Part shown: piece after piece, positions 1 through 55,200 of the stretch | How the letters are laid out: each line of letters starts with the position of its first letter | How positions within the stretch are numbered: position 1 is the first letter of the stretch | Source: Arthrobacter endolithicus | GTDB taxonomy: Bacteria; Actinomycetota; Actinomycetes; Actinomycetales; Micrococcaceae | Direction of reading: 5' to 3' | DNA length: 64,000 nt | NCBI RefSeq assembly: GCF_026627425.1 | Contig: NZ_JAPNLH010000015.1 | Location: 1 to 64,000, forward strand | Made by a program: the position numbers and the translations under genes | The notes under the pieces: model-generated | Told to the model about the DNA's origin: nothing | Databases searched by the model: none | The model's input: only the letters and a program-made list of their open reading frames with translations

Positions 1-111
1 CTCAACCAATAAAAATAATCGGTATCGACAAAACTTGGCACACTATTGAGTTCTCAAACAACAGACGCACCCGCACTCAACGACCAAAAACAACCGTCTC
101 GCTCCGGAGCA
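1..111 (-). other. rRNA operon leader (16S gene lies left of window)
   Basis: Read on the minus strand, bases 60 to about 31 give TTTGAGAACTCAATAGTGTG followed by CCAAGTTTT. This is the conserved pre-16S leader element (box A/C-like antitermination and processing region) of Arthrobacter and other Actinobacteria. An A/T-rich stretch follows toward base 1, as is usual just before the leader hairpins. The 16S gene itself is not in the window, so this is a leader seen from its upstream side. Identification rests on remembered similarity of the element. Confidence 0.7.
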
Positions 112-119
112 ACTTGTCT

Positions 120-148
120 AACTTACCGGATCAACGCCCGCCACGCAA
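120..148 (-). promoter_or_regulatory. Probable promoter of the leftward rRNA operon
   Basis: On the minus strand TTGCGT (148-143) is followed after 17 bases by TAAGTT (125-120), a fair sigma-70-type pair. A GCTCCGGAGC palindrome and the conserved leader element lie downstream. The arrangement fits an rrn promoter; the hexamers alone are only moderately good. The rest of 1-411 is C/A-rich and shows no gene. Confidence 0.4.
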
Positions 149-411
149 ATCGGCTAACCGACCCACCCAACAAACCCAAACCCACCCACACACCACAAAA
201 AACAAGCGACACAAAATCACCGGACAAAACATCCGCAGAAAATGTGGGGGTCCGTCCCACCAGAACGGCGGCAACTAGAGAAACACTACCCCCCAACCAC
301 CCAAAACACCAAACCAACACCCCACCACCCCGCACAGCAAACTCCTCCTCCACCGGTCCCGTTGCGGGGCGATATCCTGTTGATACATTGACGTACTTAC
401 TTGGGGGACAA

Positions 412-1539
412 ATGAATAGCGACTCTGCACAGCACGCTCGAGGTCACTTCCGTTCGGGAAACCGGTGGCGGTCCGTAATCTTTGGCTGTGGTGCGCTATT
501 GCTGGTGCTGTCGGGCTGCGGAGGTGTGAGCAGCGCTGCCGCGCCCACCTCGGCAGTTTCCGCGCCCACTAGCGCCAGCTCGACGCCGTCGCCCACGGTT
601 GTTGCCTCAGCTCCTGCCGCAGCTCCGGACGCAACTCCGCTGGACCCGGACGTTGTCCCGGTTGTAGAACTGGCCGCTGCAACAGCCCCCAAGGCCCAGC
701 CCGCCAGTGGCAGTAAAGCCTTAGCGGTCCTGTCCACCCTTGCTGTTAAGGGAAGGGCACCGAAGACCGGCTATGCCCGGACGCAGTTCGGCCCGGCGTG
801 GGCGGATGTGGATCACAACGGATGCGATACCCGCAATGACATTCTCAAACGGGATCTGACCGGCGTCACCGCCAAGGCCGGCACCCGGGATTGCCTGATC
901 CTGACCGGGACCTTGCAGGATCCGTACACCGCAACCGTCATCCCCTTTACACGTGGGGCGGTTACGAGCACCGCCGTCCAGATTGACCACGTCGTGGCGC
1001 TTAGCGACGCATGGCAAAAGGGTGCGCAGCAGCTAACGCTCGCGCAGCGGACCGCGCTGGCCAACGATCCGTTAAACCTGCTGGCCGTTGACGGTCCTAC
1101 AAACCAGAAGAAGAGCGACGGCGACGCGGCCACCTGGCTGCCACCGGCGAAGAGCTACCGCTGCGACTACGTATCGAGGCAGATCTCGGTAAAGGCAACC
1201 TACGGACTGTGGGTTACGCAAGCCGAACATGATGCCATGGCCGGCATCCTCGCCGATTGTGCGCAAATGTTGGTGCCGACGGATCAAGCCGCCCCGGCCC
1301 AGGTGCAGGAAGCCGCGCCGGCACCCGCACAGCCCGCCCCCGCCGCGCCGGCACCAGTCGTCCCGCCGGCACCAGTCGTCCAGCCCGCGCCCGTCCCGCC
1401 CGCGCCCGTCCCGCCGGCACCTGCTTATTATGCGAATTGCGCCGCTGTCCGGGCCGCCGGCGCGGCTCCGATACTCATCGGTCAGCCAGGCTATCGGTCC
1501 GCTTTGGATCGCGACGGCGACGGTGTCGGCTGCGAGTAA
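412..1539 (+). CDS. Secreted HNH-family nuclease lipoprotein with excalibur domain
   Basis: 375 aa from the ATG at 412, which has GGGGGA a few bases upstream. The open frame runs back to 46, but that part reads as low-complexity Thr/Pro/Lys sequence over the rRNA promoter and is not taken as coding. The N-terminus has a basic stretch, a hydrophobic core and a lipobox ending LSGC, so the protein is predicted to be a membrane-anchored lipoprotein. An Ala/Ser/Thr/Pro spacer follows. An HNH/DUF1524-type core includes IDHVVALSDAW (D192, H193), a conserved Asn in NDPLNLLAV, and NQKKSDGD. A Pro/Ala-rich linker (about 297-340) leads to a C-terminal excalibur calcium-binding motif with DRDGDGVGCE. The family is common in Gram-positives as extracellular DNases. 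Whether it acts in nutrition, competence or defence is unknown. Confidence 0.85.
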   Translation: MNSDSAQHARGHFRSGNRWRSVIFGCGALLLVLSGCGGVSSAAAPTSAVSAPTSASSTPSPTVVASAPAAAPDATPLDPDVVPVVELAAATAPKAQPASGSKALAVLSTLAVKGRAPKTGYARTQFGPAWADVDHNGCDTRNDILKRDLTGVTAKAGTRDCLILTGTLQDPYTATVIPFTRGAVTSTAVQIDHVVALSDAWQKGAQQLTLAQRTALANDPLNLLAVDGPTNQKKSDGDAATWLPPAKSYRCDYVSRQISVKATYGLWVTQAEHDAMAGILADCAQMLVPTDQAAPAQVQEAAPAPAQPAPAAPAPVVPPAPVVQPAPVPPAPVPPAPAYYANCAAVRAAGAAPILIGQPGYRSALDRDGDGVGCE

Positions 1540-16617: not shown

Positions 16618-17364
16618 GTGAAATCGAACTTTTCCGTCTCCACAGCGCGTTTGCACCTGTGCTTGATGCTTACCCTGACCTTTTCCACCGGCGTCGTGGA
16701 CGCCGTCGGCTACCTAGGGTTGGACCGGGTCTTCACCGGAAATATGACCGGGAACGTCGTCCTGCTCGGCATGGCCTTCGCTGGCGGCGCCCATCTGCCC
16801 ATCCTTCGCCCGGCGCTGGCGCTGCTCTTCTTCATGCTTGGAGCGGCCCTGGCCGGCCGCGCCCTGCGCAACGCCCCCGAGGGCTGGTCACACCGCACGT
16901 CCGTGGCCCTGTTGATGACGGCGGCTGGCATCACCGCTTTGGCATTTTTCGTCGGCTTCTCCCCGGTGCAGGGGAATGAACTTCTCGGCAGCATCACCAC
17001 TTCGGTGCTCGCCCTGACTATGGGCATCCAGGCCGCCACCGCCAAGCGGCTCAAGGTTGCCGAAATCACCACCGTCGTGGTCACCTCCACCATCACCGGC
17101 CTCGCCTCCGAATCGCGCCTCGCCGGCGGGAAAAGCCCGCACTGGGTCCGGCGCGCGCTGACCATCGGCCTGATCATGCTCGGTGCCATAGCCGGGGCCG
17201 CCGCACTGCACCTGCACTTGTGGATGGGCCTGGCCATCTCCGCCGTACTTGCCTCCGCGGTAACGCTGGTCGGACACCGGCGATGGCTGCAGGAAAACGC
17301 GGCGGCGGGCGCCGGCGACAGCGGCTGGGCCGGCAGCGGGAATGTAGCCTCAGTTTCAGCCTGA
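16618..17364 (+). CDS. DUF1275 (YoaK-like) membrane protein
   Basis: 248 aa with a GTG start at 16618. It has the DUF1275 signature VDAVGYLGLDRVFTGNMTGN and about six hydrophobic segments spread over the length, so it is an inner-membrane protein. The C-terminal tail (about 225-248) is Ala/Gly-rich. Members are widespread; the function is unknown, with occasional annotation as a transporter. It is a single gene divergent from the damaged GGT operon. Confidence 0.82.
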   Translation: MKSNFSVSTARLHLCLMLTLTFSTGVVDAVGYLGLDRVFTGNMTGNVVLLGMAFAGGAHLPILRPALALLFFMLGAALAGRALRNAPEGWSHRTSVALLMTAAGITALAFFVGFSPVQGNELLGSITTSVLALTMGIQAATAKRLKVAEITTVVVTSTITGLASESRLAGGKSPHWVRRALTIGLIMLGAIAGAAALHLHLWMGLAISAVLASAVTLVGHRRWLQENAAAGAGDSGWAGSGNVASVSA

Positions 17365-17487
17365 TGCTCCGACTGGCGGACCGTTCCGCTGGCCCGTCCC
17401 TCGATCGTCGTGAGGGAACCAACCTGCAGGACGACGACGTCATCGCGTTCAGGGCAACGGCCCCCTTAGGCGCGGGGCAAAGATCCG

Positions 17488-17731
17488 CTACAGGTCCACG
17501 ACCCGTGCGAGGGCCTCGTCGACCCGTTGCATCTCCTCGACGGTCAGAAAGCCGGCCCGGCGACGGACACCAGCGGCCAAAAAAACTGGTCACCTGTGCG
17601 CTGGTGCTGGTGGAGGCAACGATCCAGGTACTGAGCGTGAGCCAGTCCGGCTGCAGCACGACGGCGTAGCGCCGGCCCTGCTGTTCGTGGCCCCTTCCGC
17701 GCGCGGGCAGCCGGTAGACCTCACCCCTCAT
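17488..17731 (-). pseudogene. Broken MazF-type toxin gene
   Basis: The ATG at 17731 begins a MazF/PemK-like N-terminus (MRGEVYRLPARGRGHEQQG, RYAVVLQPDWL, STWIVASTSTSAQVTSF). After a run of seven T bases the frame changes, and the other frame carries a normal MazF C-terminus (FLTVEEMQRVDEALARVVDL) ending in TAG at 17490-17488. About 35 central residues are missing as well, and 244 bases is not a multiple of three. MazF enzymes are sequence-specific endoribonucleases; this one must be dead. It is divergent from the Wadjet operon. Confidence 0.75.
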
Positions 17732-17792
17732 GCAACGCGGCCATATCCTGCGCGATCGCCCGAATCTCGGCAAGGTCCCCTACGTCGTCCAT
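17721..17792 (-). pseudogene. Remnant of the cognate antitoxin of the broken mazF
   Basis: The 23-codon frame MDDVGDLAEIRAIAQDMAAL...HEG ends in a TGA that overlaps the mazF ATG by 11 bases, the usual antitoxin-toxin junction. Full antitoxins of this class are about three times longer, so the N-terminal DNA-binding part is missing or lies in a damaged upstream frame. Confidence 0.45.
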
Positions 17793-17949
17793 AATGGCCG
17801 CCCCCGGTTTAGACGGACGCGGCTGCTACAGCAGGTGCGCCGGTCTTTTACGGGTGCGGCACCGAGGACCGCGGCGGCCGCAGCGGGTGTCCATTAGCAT
17901 GGAAGCAGGCACAGAGCCGGGAACCGGGCAGCAGCCGCAGAGGAACAAA

Positions 17950-19392
17950 ATGGACTACTACGCGATAAATGCGCTGCGTGAAAACCACGCCGGGTGGTCC
18001 CTGCTCCGCGCCCAAAACGCCCCGCTGGCGGTATGTCTTTTCATGGCGGCCTTCACCGGGCCGAACCAGCGCAACATCGGCCGCCAGCAGCTGATCGACG
18101 CCCTCGACGACCTGCTGTTCGGCCTCCGTGATTCCTTCGGCGAGGACAGGTTCCCGCGCCCGGCCTCGGAGTACCTGGACGACTGGGCGGCGCCGGAGCG
18201 GGCCTGGCTGCGCAAATACTATCTACCCGGTGCGGATGAGCCCCGCTACGACCTCACCGCCGCCTCAGAAGACGTGGTCCGGTGGGTGGAGAGCCTGCGC
18301 GGCCGGGACTTCGTGGCCACGCAATCCCGCCTCACCAGCATCTTCGCGGTGCTCAAGACCCTGGTCCAGCAGTCCGAGACGGACCCGGAGGTTCGCCTGG
18401 CGGAGCTGGCGCGGCAGCGCGACGGCATCGACGCGGAGATGGAACGGATCCGCAGTGGCAACGTCCGGGTGATGAGCGCCCCGGAGGCTCTGGACCACTT
18501 TCAGCAGTTGACCACGCTGGCCAAGGACCTGCTCTCGGACTTCCGTGAGGTGGAGCAGAACTTCCGCAAGCTGGACCGCCAGGTCCGGGAACAGATAGCC
18601 ACCTGGGACGGCAGCCAGGGCGAGCTGCTGGTTTCCATCTTCGCCAATCAGCAGGACATCACTAGTTCGCTGCAGGGCCGCACCTTCCAGGGTTTCTGGG
18701 ACTACCTCATGTCCCCGCAGCTTCGCACGGAGCTGCGGGACCTATTGGAACGGGCCACGAAAATCGAGGCCCTGGCCGGTGTGGAAAACCTGCAGGCCGT
18801 GACCACGCTGCACCAGGATTGGCTGCCGGCCGTGGAGCAGACCCAGGGTACCGTCCGGCAGCTGTCGGCCCAGATGCGCCGCCTGTTGGATGACAAGGTG
18901 TTCTTGGAAAATAAGCGGATCATGCAGCTGGTCCGGAGCATCGAATCCGGCGCCCTCGCCCTGCGAACGCAGGCGCCGGGCGGCGTGTTCACCGGGATCT
19001 CGGCGCCGTCGGTAGAGGTCGCGTTACCGTTTGAGCGCCCGCTGTATGAGCCGAGCCGACGGACCGTGGTGGACGACGACGTCGTGACCGCCGACGACGC
19101 CGACGTGGATGCGGGAGCGCTGTTCAGCCAGTTCCACGTGGACCCGGACCGGCTCAAGGCCAATATCGACGATGTCCTGGCCGACGCCGGCCAGGCGACC
19201 CTCAAGGAGATCACCTCCGCGCATCCGCTATCCCAGGGCCTTGCCGAGCTGGTGGCCTACTACCAGCTGGCTACGGATTCGGACTGGGCCAGCATCGACC
19301 CCGGAATCGTTGAGCAGTTGTCCTGGACCTTGCCCGATGGCAGCATCCGGGAAGCCACCGTTGACCAGATCGTGTTTGGAAGGCCTGCATGA
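17950..19392 (+). CDS. jetA: Wadjet protein JetA (DUF3375, MukF/kleisin-like)
   Basis: 480 aa from the ATG at 17950 (AGAGGAAC just upstream). The frame is open back to 17794, but that extension is Arg/Pro-rich and non-conserved. MDYYAINALRENHAGWSLLRAQNAPLAVCL-type N-termini and the following winged-helix region are characteristic of DUF3375. A long, largely helical middle (about 120-330) with heptad-like charged sequence follows. JetA is the kleisin subunit that bridges the SMC-like JetC heads. It is the first gene of the four-gene Wadjet operon; the jetB start overlaps its stop by four bases. Wadjet complexes recognise and cleave closed circular plasmid DNA. Confidence 0.92.
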   Translation: MDYYAINALRENHAGWSLLRAQNAPLAVCLFMAAFTGPNQRNIGRQQLIDALDDLLFGLRDSFGEDRFPRPASEYLDDWAAPERAWLRKYYLPGADEPRYDLTAASEDVVRWVESLRGRDFVATQSRLTSIFAVLKTLVQQSETDPEVRLAELARQRDGIDAEMERIRSGNVRVMSAPEALDHFQQLTTLAKDLLSDFREVEQNFRKLDRQVREQIATWDGSQGELLVSIFANQQDITSSLQGRTFQGFWDYLMSPQLRTELRDLLERATKIEALAGVENLQAVTTLHQDWLPAVEQTQGTVRQLSAQMRRLLDDKVFLENKRIMQLVRSIESGALALRTQAPGGVFTGISAPSVEVALPFERPLYEPSRRTVVDDDVVTADDADVDAGALFSQFHVDPDRLKANIDDVLADAGQATLKEITSAHPLSQGLAELVAYYQLATDSDWASIDPGIVEQLSWTLPDGSIREATVDQIVFGRPA

Positions 19393-20051
19393 CCAGCACA
19401 GAGGAACACGCAAGCACCGAACAGGTTACCCGCACGCCGGAGGAACTTCCCGCCGTCGTCACCCGGCTATTCAAGGGAGTGGTCTACGCCGAGGGGGACG
19501 AGAGGCTCTGGCAGTCGCTGCTGGGACTGGTCTCCCAGGTCCGGGATTACGTTGCCGTCCTGGGCCTTGACTTGATCCTGGACGAGCCGGAGGGGTACGC
19601 GTTCCTGAGATCCCGCGAGGACGCCGACGGCACGCTGCCCCGACTGATCCCGCGCCGCCAGCTGACCTTCAATGTCAGCCTGCTGCTGGCACTGCTGCGC
19701 GGGAGGATGCTTGAATTCGACACGAACAGCAGCGAGCTGCGGCTGATTATGACCGAACAGGAGATCGCCGACATGGTCGCGGTGTTCCTCCCGGAATCCA
19801 GCAATGAGGCCCGCATTCTTGACCAGCTCGGCACCAACATCAAAAAAGTGGTGGAGTTGGGCTTCCTGCGGAAACTGCGCGGACAGCTTGGCACCTACGA
19901 GGTAGCCCGCATCCTTAAGGCCTACGTGGATGCGCAGTGGCTTGAAGAATTCGACGCCAGGCTGGCCGACTACAGGGCATCCCTTGGCGGCGGCGCGGGA
20001 GAAACCACCCTTGACACAGCCGCCAAAGAGACCGTGAAGGCGCAGAGCTGA
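19389..20051 (+). CDS. jetB: Wadjet protein JetB (DUF4194, MukE/KITE-like)
   Basis: 220 aa. The ATG overlaps the jetA TGA (ATGA) and its own TGA overlaps the jetC ATG (TGATG). DUF4194 features are the central DLILDEPEGYAFLRSRE, LIPRRQLTFNVSLLLALLRGRMLEFD, and a second winged-helix section with GTNIKKVVELGFLRKL and LGTYEVARILKAYVDAQWL. JetB binds the kleisin JetA as a KITE-type dimer in the motor complex. The acidic, disordered first 25 residues and last 20 residues are unremarkable. Confidence 0.92.
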   Translation: MTSTEEHASTEQVTRTPEELPAVVTRLFKGVVYAEGDERLWQSLLGLVSQVRDYVAVLGLDLILDEPEGYAFLRSREDADGTLPRLIPRRQLTFNVSLLLALLRGRMLEFDTNSSELRLIMTEQEIADMVAVFLPESSNEARILDQLGTNIKKVVELGFLRKLRGQLGTYEVARILKAYVDAQWLEEFDARLADYRASLGGGAGETTLDTAAKETVKAQS

Positions 20052-23000
20052 TGACCACCGAACTGCAGGACAGTCTCTTCACCCTTGAGGAGCCTGAAGA
20101 TACAACAGACGACGGCGGCATGCAGCCGGGCTTCCGGCTGCACCGTTTGGAGCTGCTGAACTGGGGCACGTTCCACGAGGGGGTGCGGGTGTTCCTGCTC
20201 GATGGCGACAACAGTCTACTGACCGGGGACATCGGCTCGGGAAAATCGACGGTGGTGGACGCCATCACCACGCTGCTATTGCCGGCGAACCGGATCGAGT
20301 ACAACAAGGCCGCGGGTGCTCAGAAGAAGGAACGCAGCCTGATGTCGTACGTGCGCGGCTTCCACAAGAGCACACGGGGAGCCGGGGGCGAGCATTCCAA
20401 GCCCGTCGCTCTGCGCGGTACCGGAGCCCTGAGCGTGGTCCTGGGCGTCTTCCACAACGCTGTTCTGGGCAAGTCCGTCACGCTGGCCGTCACGCTGTGG
20501 GCCACCCAGGAGGCCGGACAGCCGAGCCGCTTCTACTCACTCGCCGAAATGGAGCAGTCCATTGCGGGGGACTTCTCCCACTTCGGCAAGGATCCGGCCA
20601 AGCTCAAGAAGAAGCTGCGGGCCCAGGGCGCGTCCGTCCACGATTCCTTCGACCCGTACGCCGCGGCCTTCAAGCGGCAGTTTGGCATTGGCGGGAACCA
20701 GGCCATGGACCTGTTCCACCGCACGGTGTCGATGAAGCAGGTGGAGAACATCACCTCCTTCGTGCGCACCAACATGCTCCAGGATGACGACGTCGACGCC
20801 CGGATCGGCAACCTGATCCACCACTTCGATGACCTCAAGAAGGCCCATGACGCGGTGCTGCGCGCGAAGGACCAGATCAGGCTGTTGACACCGATCCGGG
20901 ACGGCGCTGCAACCTACGCCCGGCTGAGCGCAGAGGATGGGCTGGCCCGTGCACAGCGGGACCAGCTGCACCCTTGGTTCACGGACCGCAGGCTGTCGCT
21001 GAGCCGCGAACACCAGGGCGAGCTGGAACGGACCGGCCACCGGCTGGAAGTGGACAGGAACAAGCTGACCGAAGACATCACGGCGCTGCGGCACGAGCTT
21101 TCCGGCGTCCAGGAGGATATCCGCAGCAACGGCGGTGGCCGGCTGGAGGCCATTGCCGCCGAGGTGGCCCGGCTCGCCGGTGAATCCCGGACGCAGCGGC
21201 AGCGCTTCGAAACCTACGCTCTGGCCGCCGCAGAACTGGGTCTGCAGATGCCCGAAAACCGCGTCAATTTTGATGCCAACCGCGCACGCCTGGACCAGGT
21301 CGAGGCCGGCCTGGGCGGCAAAACGGCAAAACTGCACGGCAGCCGCACGGCTTTGACTATTACCCGGGCTGAGCTGACCGGACGCACCGCGGAGCTCACG
21401 GCGGATCTGACCAGTCTGCAGGCCCGCACCAACCTGCTCCCCCGCGCCCAGCTTGAGCTCCGCCGTCGGCTGTCCGAGGCCACCGGCATCGCCGAAAGCG
21501 ACCTTGCCTACGCCGGCGAACTGCTGCGCGTGCGCGACGGGGAGTCCCTGTGGGAGGGCGCCGCGGAACGCACCCTGCGCGGCTTTGCCCTCTCCCTGCT
21601 GGTTCCGGACCAGCACTACGCGGCCGTCAGCAATTGGGTGGACGGCAACAACCTACGCGGCCGGCTGGTCTATCTGCGGATCCAGGACGCCTACTCGCCC
21701 AAGGCGGCCGCCCCCGGCACGCTCGCCGCCAAAATCGCCATCAAAGCCGGCACCGGCTTCCGCGACTTCCTGCTCGATGAACTCGCCGGCCGCTTCGACC
21801 ACTTCTGTGCCGCCACCATGGAGGATTTCCGCCGCCATCCCAAGGCGCTGACCGCCAACGGCCAGCTCAAGGGAGGCCGGGGCAGGCATGAGAAGGATGA
21901 CCGCAAGGACCTGGCGGACCGCAAAAACTACGTGCTCGGCTGGGACAATCACGACAAGATCAGCCGCTTCCACGCCGAACTTGAGGACGTCACCGGTCAG
22001 CTGGCCGGCACGGATGCGCAGCTGGCCAAGGTGGACGCGTCGCTGGGCAAGCTTGGCCGGGCAAACCAGCAGCTCGGCAGCCTGCGCTCCGTCGCCGATT
22101 TCGCCGAGATCGGCTGGCAGCTCACGGCCCGCCGCATCGAGGAACTCAGGGAGGAAAAACGCCAGCTCGAATCCACCAGTGACGTCCTGGCCCAGCTCAC
22201 GGCCAAGGAAGCGGATACCTTGCTCCGGCTGGGACGGCTGGAAGAGCAGGCGGGGAAAATCCAGCAGCGCCTGGGCGCCAACGAAAAAGACGCTAAGGAC
22301 ATTGCCGAGGCGATCGAAGAGTGCCGCACGGTTCTCGCCGCTGCTCCCCTGACGGGCGACGGCGTCGTGCTGGCCGCCGTCGCCAGGCTTGCCGCCGCTG
22401 AACTCACCGGCAAGCCGCTCACCTACCGGAACACCGCAACGGTGGAGAGCACCGTGCGGACCGGACTGACGGAAACCATCGATGCACTGACCAAACGCAT
22501 TGCCCGGGCAGCGGAGGGCACGGTCCGTCAAATGGCCGATTTCCGAAACAAGTATCCGAACGCAACGACCGAAATCGACGCGTCACTGGACTCTGCCGCC
22601 GAATTCGACAGGCTTCTGGAGGAGCTGGCCAGCAACGGCCTACCCCGTTTCGAGGCGCACTTCAAGGAGTCGCTGAACCAGAACACCATCCACGAGGTGG
22701 TGGCGTTCAATGCCTTCCTGGACAGCCGGCGGCAGGACATTGTGAACCGGATCGGCGAAATCAATCTCTCGCTGGCCGGCATTGAATACAACCCCGGCCG
22801 GCACATCCAGCTGGAGCACCAGAACACTACGGACCTTGACGTGCGCCAGTTCGGCATCGATCTGCGGGCCTGTTCGGAGGGGACCATCGGGGACGACGAC
22901 CAGTACTCCGAACAGAAATACCTGCAGGTAGAACGTCTGATCGAGCGCTTCCGGGGGCGCGACGGCTTCACCACGCTGGATGAGAGGTGGACCGCCAAGG

Positions 23001-23533
23001 TCACGGACGTGCGCAACTGGTTCACCTTCTCCGCCTCGGAAAAATGGACGGAAACCGGCGAGGAATACGAGCACTTCACCGATTCCGGCGGAAAATCCGG
23101 CGGTCAGAAGGAGAAACTGGCCTACACCATCCTCGCCGCCGCCCTGGCCTTCCAGTTCGGGCTCGGCGCGGGCAAGGGCGGCGGTGGCCGTGGCTCCAGT
23201 GGTGGGGCCGGACGGCCCGGTGCCGGCAGGTCTGCGGACAGTGGCCGCAGCTTCCGCTTCGTGGTCATTGATGAAGCCTTTGGCCGCGGATCCGACGAAT
23301 CCGCCAGATACGGCCTGGAGCTCTTCCAGCGGATGAAACTGCAGCTGCTGATCGTCACGCCGCTGCAGAAGATCCACGTGATCGAGCCTTTCGTTTCCCA
23401 TGTGGGCTTCGTGGCCAATCCCAACGGCAATGATTCGCAGCTGCGCAATATGACCATCCAGGAATACCGTGCCGAGCGGGACAGGCGCACCGAACCGGAC
23501 ATCTCTGCCGGGCGGGACATACATGCCGGCTGA
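20051..23533 (+). CDS. jetC: Wadjet protein JetC (SMC/MukB-like ATPase)
   Basis: 1160 aa. The N-terminal head has Walker A GDIGSGKSTVVDAITTLLLP (GDIGSGKST 59-67). Two long coiled-coil stretches (roughly 270-470 and 600-760) flank a compact hinge-like part (about 480-600). The C-terminal head has the ABC signature KSGGQKEKLAYTILAAAL (about 1016) and Walker B FVVIDEAFGRGSDES (about 1070). This is the loop-extruding motor of Wadjet. Between signature and Walker B there is an unusual insert of about 25 residues, almost all Gly, Ser, Arg and Ala. Other parts look normal, so the protein is judged functional. Confidence 0.93.
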   Translation: MTTELQDSLFTLEEPEDTTDDGGMQPGFRLHRLELLNWGTFHEGVRVFLLDGDNSLLTGDIGSGKSTVVDAITTLLLPANRIEYNKAAGAQKKERSLMSYVRGFHKSTRGAGGEHSKPVALRGTGALSVVLGVFHNAVLGKSVTLAVTLWATQEAGQPSRFYSLAEMEQSIAGDFSHFGKDPAKLKKKLRAQGASVHDSFDPYAAAFKRQFGIGGNQAMDLFHRTVSMKQVENITSFVRTNMLQDDDVDARIGNLIHHFDDLKKAHDAVLRAKDQIRLLTPIRDGAATYARLSAEDGLARAQRDQLHPWFTDRRLSLSREHQGELERTGHRLEVDRNKLTEDITALRHELSGVQEDIRSNGGGRLEAIAAEVARLAGESRTQRQRFETYALAAAELGLQMPENRVNFDANRARLDQVEAGLGGKTAKLHGSRTALTITRAELTGRTAELTADLTSLQARTNLLPRAQLELRRRLSEATGIAESDLAYAGELLRVRDGESLWEGAAERTLRGFALSLLVPDQHYAAVSNWVDGNNLRGRLVYLRIQDAYSPKAAAPGTLAAKIAIKAGTGFRDFLLDELAGRFDHFCAATMEDFRRHPKALTANGQLKGGRGRHEKDDRKDLADRKNYVLGWDNHDKISRFHAELEDVTGQLAGTDAQLAKVDASLGKLGRANQQLGSLRSVADFAEIGWQLTARRIEELREEKRQLESTSDVLAQLTAKEADTLLRLGRLEEQAGKIQQRLGANEKDAKDIAEAIEECRTVLAAAPLTGDGVVLAAVARLAAAELTGKPLTYRNTATVESTVRTGLTETIDALTKRIARAAEGTVRQMADFRNKYPNATTEIDASLDSAAEFDRLLEELASNGLPRFEAHFKESLNQNTIHEVVAFNAFLDSRRQDIVNRIGEINLSLAGIEYNPGRHIQLEHQNTTDLDVRQFGIDLRACSEGTIGDDDQYSEQKYLQVERLIERFRGRDGFTTLDERWTAKVTDVRNWFTFSASEKWTETGEEYEHFTDSGGKSGGQKEKLAYTILAAALAFQFGLGAGKGGGGRGSSGGAGRPGAGRSADSGRSFRFVVIDEAFGRGSDESARYGLELFQRMKLQLLIVTPLQKIHVIEPFVSHVGFVANPNGNDSQLRNMTIQEYRAERDRRTEPDISAGRDIHAG

Positions 23534-24824
23534 CCCCCGGCGCTCCTGGACCACCCTGGCCACGCTGCGCGGCCTGTCCAAGGGGTTGTGGGACAGGGGC
23601 CAGCTGCTGCGCGAACTGGTGGAGCCCACCGAAGCCTATCCCCGCCGTCGCGCGCTGAAACGCCCCACGGCCGCCGAACTGCGCAGCGACTACCCTGCTG
23701 CCCGGGCCTGGGCCGCCGAGCTGTTCGCCGCCGCCGGGAAATTCTCGCTGGAAACCACGGAGGCCGGCCGCACCACCATCGGTTCCAACACGCTCCCCTC
23801 CGCCGCCGTCTTCGGCACCGCGGAGGATGAGATCGCCTTTGCCGGCAGGACCCAGGACGCCGCGCGGTTCCGGAAACTGGCCGCGGAGCTCCTCGAGCTC
23901 GACGCCGCGTTGGGCAGCTGGGTTGCCAAGCGACCGCTGCAGCTGCTGGAGCTCGACGGCGCCGCGCTGACTGCCGCCCGCGCCGCCCGCTGGCTGCGGG
24001 ACAACCCCGCGCCCGGCATCTACATCCGCCAGCTCAGCCTCCCCGGCGTTCACACCAAGTTCATCGAAACGCACCGCCGAATCATCGATGAGATGACCGC
24101 TGCGCTGCGGAGCCTGGACGCTGCCGAAGACGACGCAGGGACCACCCTGCGGGAAGACGTGGCCGGCGATAATGCCATCGACGACGATCCGAACGGCGCG
24201 GCGCTGTCCGGCGGACCCGCCGGACACGCTCTCCTCAGCGATCCCGCCGCACGAACCCCGGCAGCACGCTTCGCTGCCCGGCATGGGTTCGCGCACCCGC
24301 CCGAGCAGGTCCGCTTCCGCATTCTGGACCCCGGCCTTCCCGCCCTGGGCAGCGCGCGGGACATTACCGTCACGGCCGAGGCCTTCGCGTCCCTCCACCT
24401 GCCCGTGCGGACCATCATCGCCACCGAAAATCTGGTCAATTTCCTGGCCCTGCCCGAACGCCCGGACACAGTCGCCCTCTTTGGCCGCGGCTACGGCTTC
24501 TCCGCCCTGCGTGAAGCGCACTGGCTGCGGCACTGCGAAATTCTCTACTGGGGAGACCTGGACACGCACGGCTTCCGCATCTTGGATCAGCTGCGCGCGG
24601 TGCATCCGCACGTGGTCAGCCTCCTGATGGACCAGGAGACACTGCTGGCCCACCGTGACGCCTGGGGACACGAGCCCTCCCCCTCGCGGGCCGCCCTGAC
24701 CCGGCTGACCGAGGCGGAATCCGCCGTCTACAAGGAGCTGGGCAGCGATGCTTACGGCCGGGCCGTCCGGCTGGAACAGGAACTCATCCGCTGGGACTGG
24801 GCGCTGGAGCGGCTCCTGCGCTAG
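23523..24824 (+). CDS. jetD: Wadjet nuclease JetD (DUF3322 plus DUF2220 toprim)
   Basis: 433 aa. The ATG at 23523 lies inside the last codons of jetC (11-base overlap); an earlier in-frame ATG would overlap more. The N-terminal half corresponds to DUF3322 (TTLATLRGLSKGLWDRGQLL, AARAARWLRDNPAPGIYIRQ, VHTKFIETH). The C-terminal half is DUF2220, a topoisomerase-VI-A-like toprim fold with the metal residues in place: E302 in IATENLVNFLALP, and D345/D347 in YWGDLDTHGFRIL. JetD cuts the trapped plasmid. An acidic, low-complexity loop (about 198-245) separates the halves. No missing catalytic residue was found. Confidence 0.92.
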   Translation: MPADPRRSWTTLATLRGLSKGLWDRGQLLRELVEPTEAYPRRRALKRPTAAELRSDYPAARAWAAELFAAAGKFSLETTEAGRTTIGSNTLPSAAVFGTAEDEIAFAGRTQDAARFRKLAAELLELDAALGSWVAKRPLQLLELDGAALTAARAARWLRDNPAPGIYIRQLSLPGVHTKFIETHRRIIDEMTAALRSLDAAEDDAGTTLREDVAGDNAIDDDPNGAALSGGPAGHALLSDPAARTPAARFAARHGFAHPPEQVRFRILDPGLPALGSARDITVTAEAFASLHLPVRTIIATENLVNFLALPERPDTVALFGRGYGFSALREAHWLRHCEILYWGDLDTHGFRILDQLRAVHPHVVSLLMDQETLLAHRDAWGHEPSPSRAALTRLTEAESAVYKELGSDAYGRAVRLEQELIRWDWALERLLR

Positions 24825-24885
24825 CTTGCGCACGGGGCGTTCTCTCCCCCAAATGACAAAGCCATGGACCTTCCGAACATCCCCT

Positions 24886-24908
24886 CCTGCCGCGACCTTT
24901 CCGGCAGG
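24886..24908. terminator. Hairpin between jetD and the convergent sugar operon
   Basis: CCTGCCG (24886-24892) pairs with CGGCAGG (24902-24908) around nine bases. It sits in the 92-base gap between two convergent operons. There is no long T-run. Confidence 0.45.
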
Positions 24909-24916
24909 CGCCAGCG

Positions 24917-27010
24917 CTACTTTTGTACCAGCGTCACCCAGGTAAACCCGCCCGGGAACACCTCGACCCGGCCGGAGTGGTCCGCTCCGTTGGCATTCGG
25001 CCCGGCTGGGACAGGGCGGCCGGAGGAGTCAAACGCCTGCTGCTGCAGCTTGAACCCCTTCGGCAGGTCAACGCGGTGAAAGGAGGTGCGTGCCGCGGCA
25101 CTGACGTACAGGCTCGAGTCGCCGCCGGGCCCGCTCACGGATACGGAGGAGATTTCCGGCTGGAGCAGCAGCGCATCGATGGCTGCGGTCCCGTTGGAAC
25201 GCCCGACGACGACCGCCGCGTTTCCGGCCGGCAGCGGCGAACCCAGCGCAAACGGGTAGAGGATCCCCGGTGCCCCGGTCACTCCCTGGGCTCCGGCGCC
25301 GCCGTTAGGCGTTGTTCCGAGCACGGTGCGCCCGGACGTCCACGAAGTATTCCCGGCCGGGGCGATGCTGCGGTTCCCGATCGGGTAGACGTTCCGGGGC
25401 TGGTTGTCGGCGGGAACCGGGATGGCTACTGATCCCCCGGCGGCAAGGGAGACATATGCTCCACCGGATATATTCGCCTCCCCGGTCCAGGCGGCGGCCG
25501 GTTTCACCACGGTTCCGCCGGTAATGCTGCCGGATTCTGCCTCCACCACGCTGAGGCCATGGGAGCTGACCGTCTTATTGATCGCGAGGGCCTTGTCCTT
25601 AAGCGAAGGGTTCGCGTCAAGGGTGAGCATGCTCAGCAGCGTATGGATGGTGGATTCGGCACCGGAGTTGGGGTTGATCCGGCCGTCCGATTCGATCCCG
25701 TCGATGGCGGTGCCGGTGGCCCGGTTGTAGGCGGGGGCACCATTGGGGTTGGCCCCGAAGAACCAGGCCGCGGCAACCGCCGCCACGTCCAGTAGCCCGG
25801 GCGCATTGCTGGCCGTCGCCGTCGCCACCAGGGACTCCACGCGCGAATCCACGCCATAGGCAATTTGCGCCTCGCCCGGCGTCGGGCTCCAGGCGTTGTC
25901 CGGGCCGCCCGCGGCGAGCAGCTGCGGGGTGAACTGTGCGGAGTCCTTAACCGCGGCGGCCAGCAGGTCCGGCCGGTGCAGCACTGGGGCCGCCGTCGCG
26001 ACGGCGGCAGGGGCCATGCCGCCCCATGCATGCCAGAGGGACTGGGAGGTGACGGAGGGCAGGATGGCGCCGAAAGGCCACTGCCGGGTGGAGCCGGAGG
26101 ACATCTTCGCGATGCCCTCGGTCAGCTCGCGCAACGCGGTGTTGGCGCTGTCGTCGCCGGGAGCGGCGGTGACGTACGCGGCGAGGCCAAGCACCGCTTC
26201 CGCAGAGGCATCCGCGCCCCCGGTGATCAGCCACGCCGGCACCTGCACGCCGTCGGCCACGTCGAAGTGCCCGTACCTGGCCAGCGACTGCCGGTTGAGG
26301 GAAGCCAGCGCCAGGTGCAGCCGGTCGGCCAGAAAGGCAGCGAATTGCGGGTCTGCGGATTTGAACGCCGCGTACCCCTCACCAAGGGCCCATACCGTCC
26401 GGGCCAGCCAGTAGGACTCGGCCGAATCCGACGGATCGGGCAGCTCCACCGGCTTGGCGCTCGGGTTCAGCGTGCCGTCGGCCTGCTGCCAGAGCACCAC
26501 ATTGCCGGCGTTGGGGCCGGTTGTGGTCTGCAGGTACGTCAGCGAGCGCAGCGTCTGGAAGGCGTGCTCCCGGCTGGCAGCGTTCCCGGTCTGTTGCCAG
26601 TGCCTCAGGTAGACCACGGCCGTACGGGCAATATCGTCGGCGTTATAGGCCCCTTGGCTCCAGTAGCCGGTGGCATTGTCAAGGGTGCCGCCGCCCAGCC
26701 GCGTGTAGCTGCCATCAACGTTCTTGTTGGCATATGTCCACGGCGCCTGCGCGGATGGCTGCTGCTCCAGCTGGTATGTGGTGTGCCCGCTCACGGGTTT
26801 TAGCGAGACCGCATCCAGCAGAAAGTTCAGATGGGCCAGGTTGGTCAACGGGACGGACGACGGCGGCGCAGGTGCCTGTGGCGCGGCCGTCAGCTGGGGT
26901 GCCGGGGACGCGACGGCGGCCGTTTCCGCCCCGAGCAGCAGCATCGATAAAGCGGCGACGATCGCCACCGGTTTGGTCATTCTTCGTGAAATAGCGGTCA
27001 CGCGAACCAT
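24917..27010 (-). CDS. Large secreted protein, probable six-hairpin (alpha/alpha) glycosidase-like
   Basis: 697 aa; AGGAGG lies just before the ATG at 27010. There is an N-terminal signal peptide (basic start, hydrophobic core to about residue 35, VASPAPQ cleavage region). The next 430 residues are repeated helices with aromatic and Gly turns (TGYWSQGAYNADDIARTAVVYL, SYWLARTVWALGEGYAAF, SLWHAWGGMAPAA). They look like an alpha/alpha-toroid as in several glycoside hydrolase and lyase families. About 510-697 is beta-rich and may bind carbohydrate. No catalytic pair can be named. Its place after the GH130 gene in a LacI-controlled operon suggests it acts outside the cell on the same glycan. Confidence 0.6.
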   Translation of the reverse strand: MVRVTAISRRMTKPVAIVAALSMLLLGAETAAVASPAPQLTAAPQAPAPPSSVPLTNLAHLNFLLDAVSLKPVSGHTTYQLEQQPSAQAPWTYANKNVDGSYTRLGGGTLDNATGYWSQGAYNADDIARTAVVYLRHWQQTGNAASREHAFQTLRSLTYLQTTTGPNAGNVVLWQQADGTLNPSAKPVELPDPSDSAESYWLARTVWALGEGYAAFKSADPQFAAFLADRLHLALASLNRQSLARYGHFDVADGVQVPAWLITGGADASAEAVLGLAAYVTAAPGDDSANTALRELTEGIAKMSSGSTRQWPFGAILPSVTSQSLWHAWGGMAPAAVATAAPVLHRPDLLAAAVKDSAQFTPQLLAAGGPDNAWSPTPGEAQIAYGVDSRVESLVATATASNAPGLLDVAAVAAAWFFGANPNGAPAYNRATGTAIDGIESDGRINPNSGAESTIHTLLSMLTLDANPSLKDKALAINKTVSSHGLSVVEAESGSITGGTVVKPAAAWTGEANISGGAYVSLAAGGSVAIPVPADNQPRNVYPIGNRSIAPAGNTSWTSGRTVLGTTPNGGAGAQGVTGAPGILYPFALGSPLPAGNAAVVVGRSNGTAAIDALLLQPEISSVSVSGPGGDSSLYVSAAARTSFHRVDLPKGFKLQQQAFDSSGRPVPAGPNANGADHSGRVEVFPGGFTWVTLVQK

Positions 27011-42199: not shown

Positions 42200-45100
42200 T
42201 CACAAAGCCACCGCGCTGGCGACCACAAACACGTCCGAGGGCATCGGGCGCTGTAGCTTCCAGTTGATGGCGATCGGCTTGGTCCCCGAATGCTGCACAT
42301 AGTCGACCTGACCAAGGCAGGTGTAGGGCATGGTCATGCCCGTGTCATCGTTTTCGCGGGCCCGGGTGAAGAGCAGGATCTGTGAGCCGAATGCCTTGTG
42401 GTCCAGGTACCGCTGCCCGACAGGGCTCTCGGGTGAGGTTGAATTCTGCGATTCCCAGTGGAACAGGTCCTCACTGAGCGCGTAGTCCTTGTACATGATG
42501 GACGCGGCGCGGTCCTTGGCGTCCTTCTCCAGGGTCACGAAGAAGGCGTCCGTCTTGGTCTCCGCACTCCACGCTACACCCTCGCGGTGCCGGGCTTTCC
42601 GGCCATGCACGGATAAATATCCGAGGGCGGCGAGGATCTCTTCCCTGCGATAAGTGGCGTGGGAGTAGAGCGGGACGTGTTGAAGACCGAGCCCCAATCC
42701 TTTGGGCGCATACCGCGAGCGCTTGAGGCCCAGCGCTGCCAGTTGCTGGATTTCGGCGCAGGCATGGGGGAACTGCCGGAGATACTCAAGGCCTTCGTCG
42801 TAGGACGTGAAGCCGCCGGCTTCGGGCCAGAGCGCGAAGAAGAGCATGCGGGCGAAGGTCTGTTCGCGCAGTCCAAGGTCGTCGTAGCGTTGAGCGTCGG
42901 GCGAGGTGAGCCGGGTATAAGCGTCCACCCGTTCGGGATCGTCAATGCAGAGCAGTTGGGTCATGCGCTTGAGAATAAGAAGTTCTTCGGCAACGGACCG
43001 TTCGGAATCGACAGTAACCGGCATGGGACGGGCGCCGCCGGCCATCCCGTCGTTATCCAGCTCGCTATCCTCGAGCAGACCGGCGTCGCGCAGCAGCGCG
43101 GTCCAGGAATCGCCGGTCTTGCGGTACACGTCCTGCAGCGAGTTGCCCGATTCACGCAGGAAGTCCTCGAGCAGCAGTTCAGCATGCGAGCGCACGTCGG
43201 TGACCAGCTGGGCCCGGTTGAACCGAAGCTGCGCTTTGAGGTTCGCCAGCACAATCTGTTGAGCCACCCGGTCCAGCACAATCTGAGAGCCGGACGGCAG
43301 GAACGGGAATTCGTCGATGACGGCTTTTTCCAAGGCCTTCCGGCTGAGCCCGGTCAAGGCGCGGTACTTGGCGTCGAAGCGGAACTCGCGGCGCTGCTGG
43401 CCGATGTAGTCCAGCACGGTCAGCACGGACTTGTCTTTGGCCCGGCGCAGCCCGCGGCCAAGTTGCTGCAGAAAGACCGTGGCACTTTGGGTAGGCCGAA
43501 GCAGCATGATCGTGTCCACCTCGGGCAGGTCGAGCCCCTCATTGAAGAGGTCGACGGCGAAGATCACGTTCAGTTCGCAGCTCCTGAGCCGCCGCAGCGC
43601 GTCCGCACGTTCGTCGTCGGGCGTCTGCCCGGAGACGGCGACGGCGGCAATACCGGCGGTGTTGAAGACCTCGGCCATGTAGTGCGCGTGCTGCACGGAC
43701 ACGCAGAAACCGAGCGCACGCACGCCATCGGTGCTGGTGACCTTGTCGCGGAGCTCTTTGATGACCTTGGCCGCGCGGGCATCATTGCCGGTGTAGAGCC
43801 GGTCGAGCTGCCCGGTGTCATAGTTGCCGCGCTTCCACTCCACCTGGCTCAAGTCGACGTCGTCGGCCACACCGAAGTAGTGGAACGGGACCAGCAGATC
43901 CGCCTCCAGCGCATCCCAGAGGCGCAGCTCGCTGGCGGTCCGGCCGCCGAAGAACTGGTCGGCGACGTTGATACCGTCGCCGCGCTCAGGGGTGGCCGTC
44001 AGACCGAGCAGTTCCTGCGGCTGCAGATGGTCCAGGATGGCACGGTAGGTGGGTGCCTGGGCATGGTGAAATTCATCAATCACGACGACGTCGAAATGGC
44101 CCGGTTCGATGGTCCCGATCCCGAGGGCAGCCAGGGACTGGACGCTCGCGAAGACGTGCTTCCAGTCCTTGGGTTTGTGCTCACCCACGTAGAGCTCACC
44201 GAATGAACCGCTCTGCAGGACGTTCCGGTAGGTGGCCAGGGATTGCTTGAGGATTTCCTGCCGGTGTGCGACGAAGAGCAGCGTCAGGTCACGGCCGGCT
44301 GCTGCGCACAGGCGCTGATAATCCAGCGCGGCGACAACTGTCTTGCCGGTCCCGGTCGCGGCGACTAGCAGATTGCGGTGCTGGCCGTGGATTGCGCGCG
44401 CCGATTCAAGGTCCTCGAGCATCTCCTGCTGATGAAGGTACGGCTGCACCTCCAGACCCGTGAAAGTGTCCGGCCGGCTTACTGCCCGCCCGCCGTTGCG
44501 GGCCAGCGCGGCATCCAGCTTGTCGCCGTCGTTCTCCGGATCGTAGGGCTGGAACGCGCGCTGCTCCCAATAGCTGTCAAAGGTGATTTCAAACTTCTGC
44601 AGCAGCTTTGGCGTGCCCACCGAGGACAGCCGGACGTTCCATTCGAGGCCATCCAGCATGGCCGCGGCGCTGAGGTTTGAACTGCCCACGTAGGCCGTAT
44701 CGAAGCCGGTGTTGCGGCGGAAGAGCCATGCTTTGGCGTGCAAACGCGTGGCGTGGGTTTCATAATTGATCCGTACCTCGGCACCGTACTTTGTCACCAG
44801 ATCATCAATGGCCCGGCGTTCAGTGGCACCCATATAGGTGCTGGTCAGGACGCGCAGCTGGATGCCCCTGTCCCGCAGCTCCAGCAGTGCCGGTTCCAGC
44901 AAACGAAGCCCTGTCCAGCGGATGAAGGCGCAGAGCAGATCAACCCGGCTGGCCGACGCCATCTCGGTGCGGATCTCCGCGGCGAGGTTCGGATCGTCCT
45001 TGCCGTTGGTGAGCAGGGCGGCGTCGCTCAGCCTGGTGGTGGGGCGGCGGAGATTACGACGGCGCAGGCCGGCCGGAGCGGCGAGGGATCTCAGTTCCTG

Positions 45101-45376
45101 CGGACCCGGGTGGATGGTGTCCGGATGCTGCAGCGCGTGCAGGAGATTGTTTGCCAGGGCGACCCGCTCTTGCGGCCTGGCCTGCACGAGCGCTGCGCGT
45201 GCCAAGTCGCCGATATGCCGGGCCAGAACCTCAGGGGATGCGTCGTCGTCGACCGCTTCGAACACGGACAACAGCTCCTGCTGGCCGGCCACTCGCTCGC
45301 TCAACCGGCGCGTGCGCAGCGACTCGTATAGACCTTCAGCCAATAGCTCCGGCGGTTCTCCCCCAATGTTGTTCAC
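42200..45376 (-). CDS. PLD-nuclease / superfamily-2 helicase / DUF3427 fusion protein
   Basis: 1058 aa from the GTG at 45376. This start puts GLYESL about 15 residues in, as in the related fragment at 49074-49280, and TACCCT lies where the -10 box of a leaderless transcript would be; an ATG at 45487 is the alternative. Domains in order: N-terminal helical part; phospholipase-D-type nuclease with RLHAKAWLFRR and VGSSNLS (about 210-240); SF2 helicase with VAATGTGKTVVAALD (about 344), VVIDEFHHAQ (about 430), LLGLTATPER and QQLGRGLRRAKD; C-terminal DUF3427 with GLGLGLQHVPLYSHATYRRE. Such proteins are suspected restriction or DNA-repair enzymes. It is divergent from the PEP-synthase regulator gene. 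Confidence 0.85.
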   Translation of the reverse strand: MNNIGGEPPELLAEGLYESLRTRRLSERVAGQQELLSVFEAVDDDASPEVLARHIGDLARAALVQARPQERVALANNLLHALQHPDTIHPGPQELRSLAAPAGLRRRNLRRPTTRLSDAALLTNGKDDPNLAAEIRTEMASASRVDLLCAFIRWTGLRLLEPALLELRDRGIQLRVLTSTYMGATERRAIDDLVTKYGAEVRINYETHATRLHAKAWLFRRNTGFDTAYVGSSNLSAAAMLDGLEWNVRLSSVGTPKLLQKFEITFDSYWEQRAFQPYDPENDGDKLDAALARNGGRAVSRPDTFTGLEVQPYLHQQEMLEDLESARAIHGQHRNLLVAATGTGKTVVAALDYQRLCAAAGRDLTLLFVAHRQEILKQSLATYRNVLQSGSFGELYVGEHKPKDWKHVFASVQSLAALGIGTIEPGHFDVVVIDEFHHAQAPTYRAILDHLQPQELLGLTATPERGDGINVADQFFGGRTASELRLWDALEADLLVPFHYFGVADDVDLSQVEWKRGNYDTGQLDRLYTGNDARAAKVIKELRDKVTSTDGVRALGFCVSVQHAHYMAEVFNTAGIAAVAVSGQTPDDERADALRRLRSCELNVIFAVDLFNEGLDLPEVDTIMLLRPTQSATVFLQQLGRGLRRAKDKSVLTVLDYIGQQRREFRFDAKYRALTGLSRKALEKAVIDEFPFLPSGSQIVLDRVAQQIVLANLKAQLRFNRAQLVTDVRSHAELLLEDFLRESGNSLQDVYRKTGDSWTALLRDAGLLEDSELDNDGMAGGARPMPVTVDSERSVAEELLILKRMTQLLCIDDPERVDAYTRLTSPDAQRYDDLGLREQTFARMLFFALWPEAGGFTSYDEGLEYLRQFPHACAEIQQLAALGLKRSRYAPKGLGLGLQHVPLYSHATYRREEILAALGYLSVHGRKARHREGVAWSAETKTDAFFVTLEKDAKDRAASIMYKDYALSEDLFHWESQNSTSPESPVGQRYLDHKAFGSQILLFTRARENDDTGMTMPYTCLGQVDYVQHSGTKPIAINWKLQRPMPSDVFVVASAVAL

Positions 45377-45591
45377 TTTGCCAGGGTATGTGGTGCCGGA
45401 GACATTCAGGAACCAGGGGCCGCTGGCCAGCCGCTCAGGTTCCGTCGGCACCGGAACCAGCCTGCCGCCGTCGTGCCTCACCCACATCAACGAGTTCCGC
45501 GGCAGGCACCCGGCCCGCACGGACGCCGAGCACCCCACCGGAATTAAACTCCGCCGTCGGCATCGCCGCGACATTGGGGGAGAATGCGTTC

Positions 45592-52207: not shown

Positions 52208-55200
52208 GCCGGCTGGATAACGTCACGATGGTTTCGGCGAGCGCCGGAACCGGCAAAACCTACACGCTGACAACTAAGATCGTGGAGCAAATCGAAGCCG
52301 GCGTCCCGGCTGCCTCGATCATGGCCACCACGTTCACCAAGAAGGCGGCCGGTGAGCTCCGTGAGCGGATCGCCGGCCGGCTGCTGGACCGGGCGTCCGA
52401 GGCCGGTGGGGGTACCGGCGCAGGCGGCGGAATGTCGGCACTGGATCTGGCGGCCCAGGAACTTGGCTCAAGCCTGATTGGAACGGTCAACAGCGTCTGC
52501 GGACAGCTGCTCCAGGAGTACGCCATCGACGCCGGCCTGTCCCCGGCCCTCGAGGTGATCGGTGAAGAACAACTGGACTCCATTTTCCGGCTGGCCACGG
52601 ATGAAGTCCTCGCGGCGCATGCCCCGGAGATCCTGCCGGTGGCGCACCGGCTGGGCTTTGACGGAACAGGAGCGCGGGACGCGGCGACCTGGGAGGACAC
52701 CGTCCGCTCCATTGTCGATGCCGCCCGGACAAATCTTTTGACCGCTGCCGACCTGCCGGCGTGCGCCGACCGGTCATGGGCCGGGCTCCGTCAGCTTCTG
52801 GACACACCCGGGGCTGACCGGCGGCCCGAGTGGCTGACCCAGCTGCGCGCTGCGGAATCCGAACTGGAGCAGGTGCTGGCCAGCGGGCTGATGCCCAATG
52901 GGAAAAAGGCCAACGTCACCAGCGCCGGCTTCCTGGACCAGCACCCCAAGCTGCTGGCCAAGCTCGCCACTCTGCGCGACGTCAAGGACGTTCCCTGGGA
53001 GGTGTGGCGGGGCTTTTGCTTAAGCAGCCCGGCGGGCCCGCTCAAGCCGATCTTTCTGAGCCTCCGGCAGGACATCCATGCGGAGCTGCTCGCCAACCCG
53101 GCTCTGCACGAGGACCTCGAAGGCTACATCCGAGGCGTGTTTGTCTGCGCCGCCGAATGCCTTGAGGCATATCAGGAATTCAAGGACGCCCACGGCCTGA
53201 TGGACTTCGTGGACCAGGAAGCCCGAGTCCTCCAGCTGGCCCAGCGCAACGAGGCCTTCCGCCGGGCGTTCGCGGGGCGCATCCGTTTCCTGGTGGTCGA
53301 CGAGTTCCAGGACACCAGTCCGCTGCAGCTTGCCCTCTTCCTCGAACTGAGCTCCCTGGCTGAGCAAGCCGTCTGGGTCGGCGACCCCAAGCAGGCGATC
53401 TACGGATTCCGCGGCGCGGACCCCGAGCTCATGGAAGCCGTTGTCAGGCAGGTGCCCCGCCGGGAACAGCTCTCCTACACCTGGCGGTCCCAGCAACACG
53501 TCATAGACCTGTCCAATACCGTCTTCGAGCAGGTCTTCGCCGAGCACGGGATGAGCCCGGAATCGGTGCACCTGGAACTTCCGCCCGGGCGCAGCGGCAA
53601 CCCCGTCGGGCATCTTGAGGCGTGGACCCGACCCCAAACCAATGACGGCGAACGGCTCCGTGCCACAGCCGCGGGCGTCGCTTCACTTCTCGCGCGGCAC
53701 CGCGACCTGCGCCCGTGCGACGTTGCAGTCCTGGCCCGGTCAAACGCCGACGTCCTCACCATCTCGGCAGCGCTCGATGGCCTTGGGCTCAGGGCAAGCC
53801 GCAGCGCCCGCACCCTGGGCTCCGCCCGGGAGGTGCAACTGGCCCGCGCAGCGATGGCTTACGTCGCCGACGCCTATGACACCGTGGCTCTGACGGAACT
53901 CGTTGCCATCCACCCGGGCCATCCGGACCACGGAACCTGGCAGCAGGAACTGCTCGCAACGCCCGGGCCCGCCGCGGTCCTTGCGTCCTGGAAGACGGCG
54001 CCGGTCCTGGCCACGCTAGGTGCCCTGCGCGCGGACGCTTCCTCAGCCTCTCCGACGGCGGTCTTCGAGGCAGTGGTCGGTGCGCTGGGTCTATCGGAGC
54101 TGATTGCGGGCTGGTCAACACCGGAGACACGACTACGCAATCTGGACGCACTCCGCGGCAGCATCGACCAGTATTACGAACGGTGCCTGGCCCTCCGCTC
54201 CCCTGCCACGCTCCGGGGATTCCTGGATTTCTTCGCCGGCGAGGAGCAGCAGTCCGCCGAAAACTCAGGCCCCGACGTCGTCAATGTCCTCACCTATCAC
54301 AAGGCCAAGGGCCTCGAATGGAAGGCCGTCGTGCTTGAGGCGCTGGACAAGGACCTCCGGTTCTCGTCCTTCGGCCCCGCCGTCGTGCAGGACGTCGCAC
54401 TGAATCTTGCCCAGCCGCTGGCCGGTCGCTGGGTCCGCTTCTGGCCCAGCCCCTTCCCCTATGGCGGTTCACCACTGGACGAACGCGCCAAGACCAGCAG
54501 CGTGGCCCAGGAGGCCGAGGGCCGCGAGCGACGGAACATGGCTCGTCTCATGTACGTCGGGATGAGCCGCGCCAAAGAAATCACCGTGCTGACCGGTAAA
54601 AACGGCACCCCCGCGCTCCTGAACAACCTCGGCGTCCCGGACCTCATGAGTTGGCGGGCCGAAACCGGGGACGATGCCGCCGACGCGGGCACCGGCGCTG
54701 GCGCCAACGGCGTCATTCTGGTCGGCGGCGATACCCGGCTCGCAGCGCGAGTGGAGACCTTGGAACCTGCAGCAGCAGTTCCTCCGGTCCGCACCTGGAC
54801 GCCCCGCTACATCGATTTATCCCAGCCGCCGGCGGCGGTCCGCAAGGCCGCCCGCCTCAAAGCGAGTTCCCTCGGTTCTGCCGGGATCGGGGCTCAGGTT
54901 CACGCCGTCGCCGAGCTCGGACCGCGGCTTGCACAGCACGGCTCGGACGACTGGGGTGCCGTCGGCAGTGCCGTGCACGCCTACCTCGGCACCGAGTTCC
55001 GTTCGCTGAACGAAACCGCCCGGATACGTTCCGCGGAACGCCTGGTTCAGCGTTGGGGCGTGAGCCAAACCGTCCGCGCGGACCTGCTCCTGGCAGCTGG
55101 CGAACGCTTCGAGGCCTACCTCGACGCGGAATTCTCTGGCTGGAAACGCCACCGTGAGGCCGCCATCGGGTGGCGCCCACAGGGCCAGACGATGGAAGGC

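Follow-up and report, generated by a model that had tools for sequence, protein, structure and literature searches.

The jetABCD locus of Arthrobacter endolithicus compared with characterised type I Wadjet systems

According to the available text of PMC10482375, Wadjet occurs in 42% of Actinobacteria genomes. Loop extrusion, total extrusion, motor collision and cleavage by JetD have been described for characterised type I systems (available parts of PMC10586767; for the mechanism, see also those of PMC10123090). If the locus described here works like the solved systems, its JetABC proteins would form an ATP-driven SMC loop extruder, organized as a dimer of dimers. When the substrate is a small circle, the two motors would extrude all of its DNA and then collide, and this collision is thought to free the Toprim nuclease of JetD from autoinhibition. 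JetD would then cut the DNA with no sequence preference. Linear DNA and circles larger than about 100 kb would escape cutting. With respect to hosts, the native jetABCD genes of Clostridium cellulovorans were deleted and plasmid uptake by conjugation was tested (PMC12287153), and the plasmid copy number of Corynebacterium glutamicum is increased after loss of MksB (PMC10123090), as stated in the accessible parts of these sources.

The locus from A. endolithicus is located in a stretch of 64,000 nucleotides, which is referred to as the window (contig NZ_JAPNLH010000015.1, positions 1 to 64,000). Its features are listed in Table 1. MksBEFG from C. glutamicum is, likewise, an actinobacterial type I system. 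Its nuclease MksG (8b7f) matches JetD of the window by sequence with an E-value of 4.9e-24, and JetD from Pseudomonas aeruginosa and Escherichia coli were matched too. MksG residues E236, Y258, D279, E349 and E351 (described in the available text of PMC10123090, from which the numbering is taken) align with JetD residues E302, Y324, D345, E418 and E420. The two proteins differ in the spacing between their aligned stretches, which are separated by 63 residues in JetD of the window (197 to 261) but by 13 (290 to 304) in the chain of MksG. JetABCD from P. aeruginosa PA14 and from E. coli (7til, 8dk2, 8as8, 8q72) have the identical four-subunit set. Their similarity is distant, and alignments cover JetC residues 28-1035 (with 8dk2; 26-1036 with 8as8), JetA residues 9-381 and, for JetD, chiefly the Toprim part. 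Both of these JetD proteins have a leucine at the position of Y324. JetA, JetC and JetD clearly match solved Jet/Mks proteins by sequence, and JetB matches weakly (E 9e-5). In another system, the JetB motif IFDR is said to contact JetD (available text of PMC10586767). Inspection of JetB from the window by eye revealed no clear counterpart of this motif, the closest conserved stretch being LFKG.

A model of JetD was computed with AlphaFold2, using 31 sequences from the window and from other loci as input. It has a mean pLDDT of 86, with values below 50 only in the first five residues and in residues 206-240. Foldseek returned MksG from C. glutamicum (8b7f) and JetD from P. aeruginosa (7til) as top matches, followed by the A subunit of topoisomerase VI (1d3y). 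The TM-scores with MksG are modest (0.43/0.48, rmsd 10), perhaps because the two domains are arranged at a different angle.

Table 1. Features of the jet locus and its left and right borders (window coordinates)
Feature	Coordinates	Strand	Evidence
jetA (kleisin, DUF3375), 480 aa	17950..19392	+	PF11855 438 bits (cut-off 28.6); PADLOC JetA1 640 bits, residues 1-478; PDB 8dk1, 8q72, 8as8 JetA
jetB (KITE/MukE-like, DUF4194), 220 aa	19389..20051	+	PF13835 139 bits (cut-off 32.7); PADLOC JetB1 303 bits; PDB JetB 8dk1 weak, E 9e-5
jetC (SMC ATPase), 1160 aa	20051..23533	+	PADLOC JetC1 1371 bits, residues 21-1147; PDB 8dk2, 8as8 JetC; motifs
jetD (CAP + Toprim nuclease), 433 aa	23523..24824	+	PADLOC JetD1 438 bits; Foldseek 8b7f E 6.8e-22, 7til E 8.9e-16
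Glycine-rich JetC insert (residues 1041-1067), located after the signature and before Walker B	23171..23251	+	alignment; length variable among relatives
JetD CAP-Toprim linker, residues about 195-249 (55 residues)	24105..24269	+	pLDDT <50 at 206-240
Promoter-like site TCGGCA-17-CATAAT, ~155 bases upstream of jetA	17767..17795	+	consensus match only
mazE-like antitoxin gene, 3' remnant, ~24 codons with stop; left junction	17721..17798	-	congener homology stops at 17798; named by eye
Broken mazF/pemK-like gene	17488..17728	-	PF02452 27.6 bits, covering positions 2-48 of the 109 in the profile; last part by eye
Right junction: homology with congener G003, which lacks the operon at this site, resumes	24872..24872	.	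alignment

The initial annotation had described jetA, jetB, jetC and jetD as complete, in canonical order, and with overlaps of 4, 1 and 11 bases. This was confirmed, and none of the four frames has an internal stop. From their adjacency and overlaps, the genes are taken to form one operon. Among the 39 loci L006-L044, 36 share the 4-base A/B overlap, and the 11-base C/D overlap recurs in 31 of the 38 loci in which both genes are present. For B/C, 26 of the 39 loci overlap by 4 bases, and none has the 1-base form of the window (for these counts, the start codons of the relatives were picked by a script). The identical gene order was found again in dozens of Micrococcaceae loci. This recurrence of genes and order shows that the arrangement is not due to chance. 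A single promoter-like site was found upstream of jetA (mean of 0.0 and sd of 0.2 in shuffled sequences). A search for terminator-like sites 3' of jetD found none.

Comparison with the profiles proposed for a check (DUF3375, DUF4194, JetC, DUF2220) resulted in matches above the cut-offs for all four proteins. JetC is matched by AAA_29 (75 bits) and SbcC_Walker_B (70 bits; cut-off 27 each), with AAA_23 scoring slightly below its cut-off. JetD is matched by JetD_C (183 bits) and DUF3322 (148 bits; cut-off 22 each). We take JetD_C (PF09983) to be the former DUF2220. The assignment to type I also held up. JetA1, JetB1, JetC1 and JetD1 are the best PADLOC models (scores in Table 1), they span nearly the full length of all four proteins, and all Jet matches up to E 1e-3 are to type I models. 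The PADLOC library presumably includes type II and type III Jet models too. We thus have little doubt that the four genes make up a type I Wadjet operon (JetABCD, MksFEBG) and that it is complete. It is an intact example of a well-known, ordinary system.

Motif positions were checked in an alignment. JetC retains Walker A (K65), the signature (S1012-A1029) and Walker B (D1074/E1075), and JetD retains the toprim residues E302, D345 and D347. The initial annotation had listed the same three JetC motifs and the same JetD residues. Conservation was assessed in the 36 rows in which a filter rated all four genes as complete, window included, out of 62 rows (61 loci and the window). The 26 excluded rows are 12 short single-gene loci and 14 cases of contig edges, broken genes or a Jet gene that was not recovered whole. 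K65, S1016, G1017, D1074 and E1075 of JetC are invariant in the 36 operons, and other motif positions deviate in two rows. The three toprim residues of JetD are invariant in all 36, as are E418 and E420, and the position of Y324 is occupied by Y in 34 and by F in 2.

The nearest operon from the Micrococcaceae is that of Arthrobacter terrae Z1-20 (L031), with a sequence identity of 95% (JetA), 92% (JetB), 92% (JetC) and 84% (JetD). The dN/dS values (Nei-Gojobori) for JetA, JetB, JetC and JetD are 0.078, 0.199, 0.119 and 0.288 when compared with this relative, and 0.077, 0.124, 0.106 and 0.251 when compared with L006. They indicate that the genes are under purifying selection. JetD has the highest value among the four. 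In a JetC tree of 38 rows, the window and L031 are sisters, followed by L006 (support 100/100), with the bootstrap not fully settled.

The genome of A. endolithicus contains one JetD copy. JetC was found in four of the five genomes of the genus, including this one, and a JetD_C match in 70 of the 295 genomes of the family. A JetC scan of named genomes resulted in 49 loci, which were assigned by record title to Micrococcaceae (40), Selenomonas (2) and Bacteroidota (7). L033, which extends past its contig, was left out of the 40. Among the 39 assessable loci, there are five (L008, L024, L032, L040 and L047) in which a jet gene is missing or is apparently interrupted by frameshifts or a stop. L047 is from Tersicoccus, which we take to be a member of the Micrococcaceae. 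Some of these breaks may be sequencing errors. Two further apparent defects were discarded. In G003, the single TAG in JetC was read as the gene's own stop (the match extended to query residue 1159), since the frame in L005 is complete at 1126 aa and retains the 11-base overlap with jetD. An apparent truncation of JetC in L044 was read in the same way, with the match extending beyond the stop. Two Wadjet operons (L015 and L018) are present in Arthrobacter sp. ISL-72. They are about 20 kb apart on NZ_JAGGPP010000013.1 and belong to different branches of the JetC tree. A JetD with 64% sequence identity is encoded on a 1.35-Mb Arthrobacter replicon that is listed as a plasmid (NZ_AP024648.1, 814013-815257). 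This replicon is far larger than the sizes that Wadjet is said to restrict.

As an alternative, the locus might code for a chromosome-organising condensin (MukBEF/MksBEF type) and not for plasmid defence. JetB also matches Pfam MksE (67 bits, above the cut-off), and a search of NCBIfam profiles resulted in no match for three of the four Jet proteins but in weak SMC matches, far below the cut-offs, for JetC. To our knowledge, however, MukBEF/MksBEF condensin operons have no nuclease subunit. Here, a nuclease gene is present: jetD overlaps jetC and has intact Toprim residues. The best models of all four proteins are those of type I Jet. In addition, neither JetC nor JetD was found in one member of the genus (G001, 99% complete), which indicates that growth in this genus does not depend on the system. 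A role as condensin is thus highly improbable. A structurally complete operon that is silent or attenuated, representing early turnover of a defence gene set, is not quite so remote but is still unlikely. Decay does occur, as illustrated by the five broken loci from Micrococcaceae, and the promoter is unproven. However, all four frames are open, the catalytic residues are invariant, and the low dN/dS values (0.08-0.29 with respect to the nearest relative) argue against inactivity.

We prefer the reading as a plasmid defence system that may well be active, for which the conserved catalytic residues and purifying selection provide indirect support. By analogy, we infer that the genes are expressed in the strain, that the complex assembles and that it would cut plasmids. 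The initial annotation also predicted a lower transformation by circular plasmids. This would be expected from other hosts, as far as covered by the available text of PMC10123090, PMC10586767 and PMC12287153. The operon may thus be a practical reason for a possible resistance of the strain to small circular vectors. It also provides a native system for studying Wadjet in the genus and is one further example of a defence system found in many Actinobacteria.

The linker that joins the CAP domain of JetD to its Toprim domain has 35-118 residues in 27 of the 36 operons and 11-12 in the other 9. In the JetC tree, the 27 operons with a long linker all belong to a single clade (28 rows, support 100/100; the additional row, L044, is outside the length count). 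The 9 operons with a short linker are outside that clade, along with L045, for which no JetD was found. A single gain of the long linker would be the simplest reading. The long linkers have a net negative charge in 26 of 27 cases, and acidic residues average 19%, compared to 13% for the whole protein. For the protein from the window, the linker is predicted to be disordered. The linker diverges faster than both flanking domains when the window is compared with L006 (19/57 identical residues, compared to 149/193 and 142/182). An origin from tandem repeats was considered but is unsupported, because Tandem Repeats Finder reported only short arrays of about two units (L006 6400-7100, window 17300-24900).

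A somewhat flexible linker has been described, as has a switch between autoinhibited and active forms (available text of PMC10586767). The insert is thus found at a sensitive place. One may speculate that one clade of Micrococcaceae has gained, at the presumed autoinhibition hinge, a long tether of mostly acidic and probably disordered character that adds a level of control, so that activation would be unlike that in E. coli and P. aeruginosa. It might, for example, cover the DNA groove or loosen the coupling to JetABC. We consider this a long shot, and it would be simpler to read the insert as a neutral spacer. Among the matches listed for literature on the JetD linker or the CAP domain, no title concerns such an insert. 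JetD proteins with long and short tethers within one bacterial family are natural material for asking how JetD is switched on.

The operon is absent from this site in the congener G003, where the DNA matching the window flanks (to 17798 and from 24872) is only 361 bases apart, compared to 7073 in the window. The site is instead occupied by an intact mazEF-like pair (L078 6203-6734, minus strand; PemK/MazF toxin 65.6 bits), followed by the 3' end of a gene that reads as relE-type. The antitoxin gene from G003 was read from the sequence by eye, and a Pfam search of its frame resulted in no match. In the window, the antitoxin gene is cut where the operon segment begins on the left, and the first and last parts of mazF are in different frames, with an internal deletion compared to the copy from G003. 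A different Wadjet is encoded elsewhere in G003 (JetC 65%; L085).

A. terrae (G004) has the same left junction as the window (17651-20004 is contiguous in L080, 91%), so that the junction event seems to be older than the split between the two. In the congener G002, similarity to the window stops at 17928, 22 bases upstream of jetA, and the left junction is thus a different one. Extra genes are found between jetD and the conserved flank, 9.2 kb in A. terrae (L079 5060-14222) and 14 kb in G002 (L081 4480-18650). By eye, these read as metabolic genes. The region beside jetD is thus a variable site. The flanking gene (24917-27010) is closer to G003 (91.5%) than to A. terrae (86.5%). In contrast, A. 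terrae is closer for gyrB (88.5% versus 81.2%, a clear contrast) and for part of rpoB (93.1% versus 91.5%, a small contrast). This suggests, from few genomes, that Wadjet and mazEF may alternate at one site through recombination. No direct repeat of 8-10 bases is shared between 17761-17840 and 24831-24910, and no tRNA was found within the 64-kb window.

A gene located 17 kb from the operon (42200-45574, minus strand) is predicted to encode a type IV methyl-directed restriction enzyme (PADLOC mREase_IV, 1121 bits). The enzyme has PLD, helicase and DUF3427 domains and may be a second barrier to foreign DNA. It could also lower transformation and would thus confound a simple comparison. A defence island is unsupported, as this is the one strong PADLOC defence match among 10 other proteins chosen from the larger set encoded in the window, and as the extra genes beside the operon in A. 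terrae and G002 look metabolic by eye. The protein encoded at 46-1539 (plus strand) has a GmrSD restriction-endonuclease C-terminal domain and an Excalibur domain, with no PADLOC match at E 1e-10. GajB matches of the protein encoded at 51997-55419 were discarded as generic UvrD matches in an apparent AdnAB-type pair. This pair consists of two adjoining genes (49565-55419, plus strand) with PD-(D/E)XK nuclease and UvrD helicase domains, which we take to be, probably, an AdnAB repair pair.
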